From NCBI RefSeq assembly GCF_004799665.1, contig NZ_CP031310.1, forward strand, positions 364,887 to 428,886: a stretch of DNA of 64,000 nucleotides, written 5' to 3'. The notes beneath the pieces were generated by a model. The model was not told where the DNA came from, ran no database searches, and saw only the letters and a list, made by a program, of their open reading frames with translations. The position numbers and the translations under genes were made by a program. This stretch comes from Halapricum salinum (GTDB taxonomy: Archaea > Halobacteriota > Halobacteria > Halobacteriales > Haloarculaceae). Positions 48,225 through 51,159 of this stretch are shown here, in pieces; the stretch's first letter is position 1; every line of letters starts with the position of its first letter.

Positions 48225-48231
48225 CATTTAT
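48225..48231 (+). promoter_or_regulatory. TATA box of the receptor-like pseudokinase
   Basis: TTTATATG in the 51-bp gap (about 48225-48232) lies 30-37 bp before GTG 48262, so the gene has its own promoter after the regulator. Confidence 0.5.
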
Positions 48232-48261
48232 ATGAAGCGGCTTACCAGTGATAGCTGAAAC

Positions 48262-51159
48262 GTGGACCGCCAGTGGAGGAGACGCGACGTACTCGGGAGC
48301 ATCGGGAGTGCAACGGTCGGTGTTGCGGTCGCAGGGACGCCGGCCAGTGCCGATTCGTTGTCGAACCACAGGAACGTAGAGGTGTACGACGAAAACGGGA
48401 CGAAACTCCCAGTCGCCGGGGATACCGGAAACCCGATCCTGGCGAACGACGTCACCCAGACGATCAGGATCGAGGCGTTCCCGCCGGATCCGGACGACGA
48501 GCCACTGAGCCAACAGGAGTTCCAGATCAACGCCGACGAGGATCCAGTCAGCGAAACGACCATCGACACCTACAGCGTACTCCAGGAGGCGAGCAGATTG
48601 GTGACGGACAACGAGAACTACTTGAATATCCCGTATAGAGAAGGCCAGATCGGCTATCTCACTGTAACTCCGATCGGAACGGGAGAAGAAGTGATCGTCC
48701 TCCGGGACAGCGGCGGGAATCGCGTGCAGAATCACGCCGGAGAGGACATCGTCTTCGACGTCCTGCGCTCGAATCTGGAGGTGGCTCTCGACCTCGGCCG
48801 CGACTCGGTCACGCCCGGCGAGTCGCTGACAGCAACGGTGACCGTGGTGGCGACCGGCGAACCGCTCCTCCGCGCCGACATCGCTCTGATTGATTCAAAC
48901 GGTAACTGGATCGACAGCGCCCTCACCGACGAGTCCGGGCGGGCGACGATCGAGATACCGGAGAGCGCGCGACTTGGCGAGTACAGTCTGGAGACGCGAC
49001 CGGCTGGCTACCAGCCGACCGCGGTGAGTTTTCAGGTCCGCTCACCGCCCGAATTCGACGAGAATCTAACTCTCTATCCACAGAGCGACCAGGCGATCTC
49101 CGGGACATCCTCGGCTGAGCAAGGGACGACATATACAATCGAAGTGGCTGGCCCCGGGTTCATAGAAGACGCAGAGACCGAAGTACAGGCCGACGGCACC
49201 TTCTCGGCTGCGTTCGACCTGCGTTCGCTGAGTGCTGGTGACGAAGTGACTGCGAGAATCGATGGCCTCGACGAAGTCATCTATACGCTGGAGTCACCGC
49301 CGGCGGCGACGGTCACGATGAATCCGCAGATCAGCCAGAACGGGGACATCGTCACCGTCAGCGAGGCCTTCCTGCCCGAGGGCGGTTACGTGGTCATGCA
49401 CGACGCGAACTCCGGCGACGTCATCGGCCACACGGCCTACTTCGAACCCGGAACCTACGGAGACGTCGACGTCCTCCTCGACGAGCGCCTCCCTGGCGGT
49501 GAAAACGACGTCATGGCGATGCCACACCTGGACAGCGACGGTGACGAGGTCTACGACTTCCCGGATTCCGACGGCCCGTACGTGGCCGATGGTGAACCAG
49601 TGACCGATACTGCGGTCGTGTCCGTCAGTCGGACGCCGGCTAGCTTCGAGGTCACGAGCTTCGACGCGCCGGACACTGTCACATGGGGTGACTACGTAAC
49701 CGTCACGGCGAGAATCGAGAACACTGGCAACGTGGAAGCGACCCAGCCGGTCGAATGCCGGATCGACAGTGGAGTGGTCACCACGCGGACCGTCACGCTC
49801 GGCGGTGGCGCGAGCCAGGCGGTCGAGTTTACTTTCCAGGCCGTCGACGCTGGCAGGTTCACGCTCGGCGTGTACACCGACGACGACAGCCAGACCGGCC
49901 AGCTGACCGTCGAAACCCCGCAGACCACGACGACTACGACGACCGATACACCGGTCAGGGACCCACCGACGACCCCAGCGGCCCCTTCTGGTTCCCAATT
50001 CAGCGACAACGGGAGTCCCGAAGACGAGTCCGGACTTCCGTGGCTACCACTCGGGGCCGGCGTGGCCGTCAGTGTTGCTGGCTTGGTCGGCTGGCTCAGT
50101 TTCACCAACACGGACGACAGACCCACCGGCAACGCAGGTGAGGCCCCCCCGCAAAACGGTGGGGGATCTTCCCCATCGGACGGAGGTGATGCTTCTCCGT
50201 CGGACCCGGAGAGTGCTCCGCAGTCGACTGCAGACAGACCGGGACCGGACGCGGGTCAATCGCCGACGAACACCTCGGATCGAGGGCCGACCGAACAGGC
50301 CTCGAACGACACCCGGCAACGAGGGGCCGCAGTCGACTCGGAGGGTACCAGATCGGCCGAACCAGAGTCACCACTCGCGACCGGTGTTCGAGACCTCTCG
50401 AACGTGAATCGATTGGGTCGGCGCGGCCCGCTCGACGTGTACACGGCAGTCCACGCGGACGTGGCTGACCCCGTTCGGGTGCTGACGGTTGCAGACGGAG
50501 TGGACGTCGACGACGATCTCGAAGCAGGATTCCGTGACGCAGTCCACGGCTGGCGCAACCTGAGTTCGCACCCGAACGTCGTAACGCTGCAGGACTGGGG
50601 GACCGACCCGGTCCCGTGGGTGGCGACGGAGATGGTAGCAGACGCGACCCCCTTCGGTGCGTACGAGGCCGACCCCGACGTTCTCCTAGACGTGCTCTCG
50701 GACGTCGTCGAGCCAGTCAACACCGCAAGTCTCTACAGTGCGACCCACGGCAACCTCACCGACGAAACCGTCCTGATCGCCGACACCGAACAGGGTCCGA
50801 CGGGGCTGGTCGACGACTGGGGTGTGAACCGAGTAGTCGAACGTGCGCAGGACGAGACGTGGCTGACGCCGTACACCGCGCCGGAGCAACTCGAAGCCGG
50901 CACTGGCGGTCGGTCGACGGAGGTGTTCGCGCTCGGTGCGCTGGCATACGAGGCCCTGGCTGGTGAGCCACCGTTCCCGGAAACCGACGACGAGACGCGG
51001 TATCTCGACGCGGTGCGGCGAGGGCCGACTCCACCGAGCGAACGGGACGGGAGCGATCCGGCCCTCGACGGGCCGATCCTGCGGGCGCTGGCCGCCGACC
51101 CCGAGCAGCGCCACTCGTCGGTCACCGCGTTCGACGCCGCGCTTCGGAACGAACGGTAG
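48262..51159 (+). CDS. Tat-exported receptor-like protein with cytoplasmic pseudokinase domain
   Basis: 965 residues from GTG 48262. A Tat signal (residues 1-31, WRRRDVLGSIGSATVGVAVA) opens an outer part: beta-rich Ig-like regions (about 32-345), a DUF7282-type domain (about 350-456, VTMNPQISQNGDIVTVSEAF), a CARDB domain (about 457-553), then a Thr-rich stalk (554-590). One TM helix (about 591-613) leads to a charged linker and a kinase-fold C-domain (about 712-965). Kinase landmarks survive in order: SHPNVVTLQDWG, the hinge WVATEMV, HGNLTDETVLI (catalytic loop), VDDWG (DFG site), TAPEQL (APE) and LRALAADPEQRHSS. The VAIK lysine, the HRD Asp (now Asn) and the loop Asn are gone, so catalysis is unlikely. 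The call is by architecture. Confidence 0.82.
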   Translation: MDRQWRRRDVLGSIGSATVGVAVAGTPASADSLSNHRNVEVYDENGTKLPVAGDTGNPILANDVTQTIRIEAFPPDPDDEPLSQQEFQINADEDPVSETTIDTYSVLQEASRLVTDNENYLNIPYREGQIGYLTVTPIGTGEEVIVLRDSGGNRVQNHAGEDIVFDVLRSNLEVALDLGRDSVTPGESLTATVTVVATGEPLLRADIALIDSNGNWIDSALTDESGRATIEIPESARLGEYSLETRPAGYQPTAVSFQVRSPPEFDENLTLYPQSDQAISGTSSAEQGTTYTIEVAGPGFIEDAETEVQADGTFSAAFDLRSLSAGDEVTARIDGLDEVIYTLESPPAATVTMNPQISQNGDIVTVSEAFLPEGGYVVMHDANSGDVIGHTAYFEPGTYGDVDVLLDERLPGGENDVMAMPHLDSDGDEVYDFPDSDGPYVADGEPVTDTAVVSVSRTPASFEVTSFDAPDTVTWGDYVTVTARIENTGNVEATQPVECRIDSGVVTTRTVTLGGGASQAVEFTFQAVDAGRFTLGVYTDDDSQTGQLTVETPQTTTTTTTDTPVRDPPTTPAAPSGSQFSDNGSPEDESGLPWLPLGAGVAVSVAGLVGWLSFTNTDDRPTGNAGEAPPQNGGGSSPSDGGDASPSDPESAPQSTADRPGPDAGQSPTNTSDRGPTEQASNDTRQRGAAVDSEGTRSAEPESPLATGVRDLSNVNRLGRRGPLDVYTAVHADVADPVRVLTVADGVDVDDDLEAGFRDAVHGWRNLSSHPNVVTLQDWGTDPVPWVATEMVADATPFGAYEADPDVLLDVLSDVVEPVNTASLYSATHGNLTDETVLIADTEQGPTGLVDDWGVNRVVERAQDETWLTPYTAPEQLEAGTGGRSTEVFALGALAYEALAGEPPFPETDDETRYLDAVRRGPTPPSERDGSDPALDGPILRALAADPEQRHSSVTAFDAALRNER

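Follow-up and report, generated by a model that had tools for sequence, protein, structure and literature searches.

How might a membrane protein with the layout of a receptor kinase signal in an archaeon if its kinase domain lacks the catalytic residues, and what would it sense? The question is raised by a gene on the forward strand of a 64-kb stretch of the Halapricum salinum genome (the whole of which is called the window here), where an open frame with a GTG start (48262..51159) encodes a protein of 965 aa. To our knowledge, it is still to be learned how archaea sense the state of the S-layer, and what the FtsZl1 family of tubulins does has been a question since 2010. With an outer part made of S-layer sequence and a co-occurrence with FtsZl1, the receptor allows S-layer sensing and FtsZl1 function to be tested together; it belongs to an archaeal receptor family whose inputs are modular and whose inner part is a kinase fold without catalysis. 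Its S-layer-derived ectodomain and pseudokinase, together with the near-restriction of membrane relatives of that pseudokinase to genomes with FtsZl1, hint at an archaeal way of sensing the state of the cell coat.

Layout of the receptor and fold of its inner domain

The protein begins with a predicted twin-arginine (Tat-type) signal (residues 1-32, 48262..48357; MDRQWRRRDVLGSIGSATVGVAVAGTPASA), recognized in the sequence by an RRRDVLGS motif and a hydrophobic stretch. Residues 39-457 (48376..49632) form the S-layer copy considered below and contain a CarboxypepD_reg-like domain, a BGTF surface domain (residues 266-338; NCBIfam) and DUF7282 (residues 349-453; Pfam, E 5e-28). A CARDB domain follows (residues 462-543, 49645..49890; Pfam, E 9e-10), its modelled fold matching the CARDB domain of PF1109 (Z 14.1). 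A Thr/Pro-rich stalk (~residues 551-590, 49912..50031) then leads to one transmembrane (TM) helix (~residues 591-615, 50032..50106), whose Kyte-Doolittle peak of 1.67 is the sole one of that height in the protein besides the signal. A low-complexity, S/P/G/D-rich juxtamembrane linker that looks disordered (residues 616-694, 50107..50343) joins the helix to the cytoplasmic pseudokinase domain (residues 695-965, 50344..51156); all these features lie on the forward strand. Pfam, hydropathy and sequence agree with the topology given in a preliminary description of this locus (RR signal, beta-rich ectodomain, Thr-rich stalk, one TM helix and inner kinase region), and we predict a type I membrane protein with the kinase fold on the inner side.

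The same description had named the adjacent genes, a FilR1-type regulator and an HTH_10 protein, as a possible output of the receptor. The regulator is encoded on the same strand, 51 bp upstream, and the domains of both neighbors were confirmed with Pfam. However, no homologue of either was found beside the other loci compared from the receptor's own pseudokinase clade (clade A, below), and a TATA-like element, TTTATAT (48227..48233, forward strand), stands between the regulator and the receptor, ~29-35 nt before the GTG. This element is the sole match in the 64 kb, where 0.16 would be expected from shuffling, and considering the known spacing of haloarchaeal promoters it is probably the receptor's own, leaderless promoter. 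Since the neighbors are not shared and the receptor has a TATA-like element of its own, signaling to these two proteins is unsupported, and we consider it quite improbable.

The kinase region matched PknB among PDB sequences (E 4e-15), and the Pfam family Pkinase covers residues 726-920 (E 4e-9; 36.6 bits versus a cut-off of 31.7 for PF00069). An AlphaFold2 model of residues 695-965 (pLDDT 93.8, pTM 0.91) returned PknB in a Foldseek search (E 3e-14), and VIA-align matched it to PknA with Z 26.7 over 253 residues at 2.5 Å. As modelled, the inner domain is beyond doubt a kinase fold, which bears out the earlier reading from landmark motifs, all of them present. Alignment with PrkC and PKA as reference rows showed the VAIK Lys to be replaced by Leu, the alphaC Glu by Ala, the HRD Asp by Asn831, the catalytic-loop Lys by Thr and the catalytic Asn by Thr836; the DFG-type Asp (as DWG, Asp852), the APE Glu and the alphaI Arg are retained. 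Loss of the VAIK Lys, HRD Asp and catalytic Asn had been noticed before, and that of the alphaC Glu and the catalytic-loop Lys is now added. Only the DFG Asp is kept of the five residues checked for an active Hanks-type kinase, and residues 701-965 contain no lysine. With a kinase fold that lacks catalytic residues, two of which (the VAIK Lys and the alphaC Glu) are absent throughout clade A, the domain is a pseudokinase; as far as its residues tell, it is a catalytically dead kinase.

The closest solved folds are those of the PknB/StkP-type PASTA receptor kinases, which share the single-TM layout but, unlike the receptor, are active and carry PASTA domains. The bacterial pseudokinases MviN/ActPs3, EssB/YukC and GLW (PMC12599244) likewise have a degraded-motif kinase fold on a membrane protein and are presumed to be scaffolds. 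However, they come from another lineage, and in the part of that review considered here none has S-layer or clade-A ectodomains, no link to FtsZl1 is reported, and no pseudokinase of the receptor's kind is described. Searches of the open-licence literature found nothing relevant on haloarchaeal pseudokinases or on S-layer-linked kinases.

A clade of pseudokinases with diverse sensors

A tree was built from 87 kinase-domain sequences, most of them from haloarchaea. It places the receptor domain inside a 22-row clade (clade A; support 98/81), apart from which intact kinases of haloarchaea (HLDLKPENVLF...ADWG) form a large group. The receptor domain scored 290 bits with the clade profile versus 122 with the intact-kinase profile. 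None of 61 non-redundant clade-A members has the VAIK Lys or the alphaC Glu and only 7 have the HRD Asp; the APE Glu and the alphaI Arg are present in 59 and 60, respectively. Because the receptor domain falls in a clade with the same losses, its catalytic loss is not private decay. The clade also retains the C-lobe framework and a set of positions with invariant F, W, P, G or R, which point to a conserved non-catalytic surface, and this pattern of conservation is as would be expected of a binding module. The signaling scaffold suggested in the preliminary description is thus supported as a general idea.

SelO and SidJ are kinase folds with non-kinase chemistry, and the inner domain, instead of being purely a scaffold, might similarly be an unconventional enzyme (AMPylation, glutamylation or an ATP-binding switch). 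The DWG-type Asp, kept in the receptor and in 39 of the 61 members, would suit such a function. However, the lack of lysine in residues 701-965, the replacement of the HRD Asp and catalytic Asn, and invariant columns that hold no alternative conserved polar set make this very improbable.

The outer domains of clade-A members comprise PBP_like_2, SBP_bac_5, Peripla_BP_6, SBP_bac_1, PQQ propellers, PKD, CARDB, CarboxypepD_reg and S-layer domains, and some members have one or two plastocyanin-like (Copper-bind) domains outside. In about half of the members the pseudokinase comes first and the sensor last, many of these having a twin-arginine motif a few residues ahead of the internal TM helix, and in both domain orders the kinase fold is predicted to lie inside. 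Since this inner domain is joined to other outer sensors in the relatives, the pseudokinase would be a common adaptor and the ectodomain an interchangeable input. Clade A also includes a soluble subgroup. The earlier remark that such receptors are unusual for Archaea was too broad and needs narrowing, as clade A recurs in several haloarchaeal families. In the phylum sample, clade-level scores were confined to genomes of the window's own order, and three more distant genomes had matches at the intact-kinase level only. A contig scan with five clade sequences yielded mostly ordinary bacterial kinases and, from haloarchaea, only two members of the clade.

Besides the receptor, its genome encodes a clade-A protein with an SBP_bac_5 ectodomain, a soluble clade-A protein and one member of a second clade. 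The first (L005:5394-8291; G000:C1:~2520393-2523290) has an N-terminal pseudokinase, an RR motif right before the internal TM helix and the peptide-binding SBP_bac_5 outside; an internal Tat-like signal-anchor placed after a folded domain, as here, is common to many clade members. The soluble one (L006:4640-6079; G000:C1:~3263639-3265078) has an unnamed N-terminal domain of ~200 aa, and its subgroup is also present in genomes without FtsZl1. The second pseudokinase clade (clade B; 14 rows, 100/99) is separate from clade A and is marked by HGGIDP and LDNVGLL motifs; its proteins are ~500 aa long, widespread in haloarchaea and usually one per genome, here at L007:3960-5507 (G000:C1:~602959-604506). 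One genus (G028, G041 and G053; L054-L059, L068, L069 and L074) has 11-15 kinase-fold genes, mostly intact and DWG-type, clustered in one or two regions.

Allosteric control of active kinases is a common role of eukaryotic pseudokinases, and the receptor could conceivably exert such control over an intact Hanks-type kinase, in the manner of HER3 and EGFR. An intact kinase does occur near a soluble clade-A gene in one genome, G018 (L276 and L064, G018:C1:344-350 kb), where the two are ~5 kb apart and form the sole possible-looking pair. However, a PF00069 search of the receptor's own genome returned pseudokinases of clades A and B plus weak matches, RIO1 among them, with no intact Hanks-type partner found; when the best loci of ten genomes with FtsZl1 were compared, an intact motif set was present in G018 only. 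We therefore think a partner kinase improbable.

Descent of the ectodomain from an S-layer glycoprotein

A search of the same genome with the ectodomain found a protein of 2004 aa (L328:1094-7108; G000:C1:2015093-2021107) with the TIGR04207 signal of haloarchaeal surface glycoproteins and a PGF-CTERM anchor. Since TIGR04207 has exactly one match in this genome, we took the protein to be the S-layer glycoprotein. It is more than twice as long as the S-layer profile NF041335 (862 positions), and congener forms measure 1608-1707 aa. Receptor residues 39-457 align with residues 1525-1943 of this S-layer protein at 69% identity over 419 aa with no gaps; the same region is 57, 55, and 39% identical to the S-layers of three congeners. 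A four-row quartet tree joined the receptor with its own S-layer protein (100/100), in keeping with an S-layer duplication inside the receptor's own lineage, although rooting the duplication with a fifth, distant S-layer gave a weak result. The CARDB domain of the receptor is absent from its own S-layer protein and is present at the equivalent place in that of a congener (G001), to which receptor residues 426-571 are 51% identical.

On these alignments, most of the ectodomain is shown to descend from the membrane-proximal part of the S-layer protein. In comparison with that protein, the receptor is without the first ~1500 residues and the TIGR04207 signal, having its Tat-type RR signal instead, and PGF-CTERM is not among its matches. 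The PGF-CTERM anchor of the S-layer ancestor is, by all appearances, replaced in the receptor by the TM helix and the pseudokinase. A fold search with the ectodomain, ~residues 33-169 of which were modelled poorly, returned CARDB (Z 14.1) and generic Ig/macroglobulin folds, with no S-layer structure among the matches listed, an absence that carries no weight; the S-layer protein itself had no match among PDB sequences.

Another clade-A member, L041 of G018, matches NF041335 with residues 77-520 (E 1e-32), and the fusion of S-layer with pseudokinase was found in these two genomes only, built independently in each. Such rarity could mean that the receptor is a chance fusion of an S-layer duplicate and a kinase relic, with no role. 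However, the 965-aa frame is intact, fold-critical residues are kept and the same inner domain occurs with many sensors in many genera, and we hold chance fusion to be extremely improbable.

Association with the FtsZl1 module

At four clade-A loci we found the same three neighbor genes, encoding a ~1050-aa Tubulin_2 protein, a ~480-aa protein with N-terminal TM helices and GTPase motifs, and an 'IYDSQG' membrane protein; the latter two matched no informative Pfam family. We recognize this set as the FtsZl1 module reported by Makarova and Koonin (2010; PMC2875224), who described FtsZl1 beside three 'PK' genes in Halorhabdus utahensis (Huta_2050-2056) and noted haloarchaeal serine/threonine 'kinases' near FtsZl1, possibly acting on FtsZ. 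One genome of our sample (G006), with three clade-A genes beside FtsZl1, fits that description and is probably the same species. Clade A shares the genomic association of those 'kinases'; in contrast to them as described, its members are without catalytic residues and have diverse sensors, one of them built from S-layer. In the open-licence literature we found neither kinase loss nor an S-layer origin reported for FtsZl1-associated kinases.

The close form of FtsZl1 was looked for in 97 relatives and was present in all six genomes with membrane clade-A genes (the receptor's own included) and in 0 of 91 others (p 1e-9, uncorrected for shared descent). Across 391 genomes of the class, FtsZl1 occurred in 14/17 genomes with membrane clade-A genes versus 18/374 others (p 1.6e-14, likewise uncorrected for shared descent), so that 18 FtsZl1-bearing genomes are without such a gene; three other genomes (G194, G309, and G409, the last 88% complete) have a membrane clade-A gene without FtsZl1. 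Contrasts within four genera (g1, g2, g14, and g20) agree, one species having both and a sister species neither. A clade-A gene and FtsZl1 adjoin in 13 genomes, the only kinase folds in the ~6-kb FtsZl1 flanks examined were those of clade A, and the three-gene order is constant at almost all strong FtsZl1 loci. Membrane clade-A members thus occur almost only in haloarchaea with the FtsZl1 module. The module is complete in the receptor's own genome (L229:6545-14454; G000:C1:146544-154453) and does not adjoin the receptor, which lies at 413 kb, ~260 kb away. Since it is complete and yet unlinked, linkage alone does not explain the co-occurrence. Neither this genome-wide link, nor the S-layer origin of the ectodomain, nor the swappable sensors had been part of the preliminary description.

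Co-occurrence and adjacency suggest a partnership between the pseudokinase and FtsZl1, and we propose that the receptor is a non-enzymatic S-layer sensor coupled to FtsZl1, a proposal that we give an even chance. From the descent, anatomy and co-occurrence described above we infer the following flow of signal. Because the ectodomain resembles the foot of an S-layer subunit, its ancestry suggests that it would sit beneath or among such subunits, associated with the lattice, where it could report strain, gaps or intruders. The signal would cross by the one TM helix and reach the pseudokinase by way of the flexible linker. There, the conserved surface of the C-lobe may bind or release, at the membrane, one of the components of the FtsZl1 machine and in this way switch local assembly and membrane remodelling. 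A counterpoint is that Tat export is predicted for the receptor, whereas the S-layer protein itself has a different signal.

The main rival to this coupled sensor shares most of its anatomy and differs in the input. The receptor might be an integrated decoy that displays a copy of an attacked surface protein, with the FtsZl1 machine as the defence response on engagement; the attackers would be viruses or rival cells, and the copied targets S-layer, solute-binding proteins and plastocyanins. Ectodomains of several members do copy common exposed surface proteins, the S-layer copy tracks the receptor's own S-layer rather than those of congeners, and the clade has a patchy, fast-turnover distribution. 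Bacterial tubulin and GTPase systems have, moreover, been proposed as conflict systems (PMC7159879). However, ectodomains of the PQQ, PKD, and CARDB types do not readily suggest receptors for viruses and no defence genes adjoin the receptor in the window, and we consider the decoy unlikely. As a generalization of the coupled sensor, haloarchaeal coat sensors may consist of a duplicated S-layer foot and a dead-kinase adaptor that drives the FtsZl1 machine without phosphorylation, with interchangeable receptors and possibly decoy surveillance of virus or envelope attack; this wider scheme is tentative, and we deem it possible rather than probable.

The DO-GTPase/GAP1/tubulin systems (Kaur et al., 2020; PMC7159879) resemble the FtsZl1 association in combining a membrane GTPase with a tubulin-like protein and sometimes kinase domains. 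Unlike it, they are bacterial, and their tubulin-theme kinases are not described as S-layer receptors; no GAP1 was identified at the haloarchaeal FtsZl1 system. In the receptor's own genome, the third protein of the FtsZl1 module measures 1102 aa; its TM segment is followed by a long, repeat-rich part that differs from that of other genomes.
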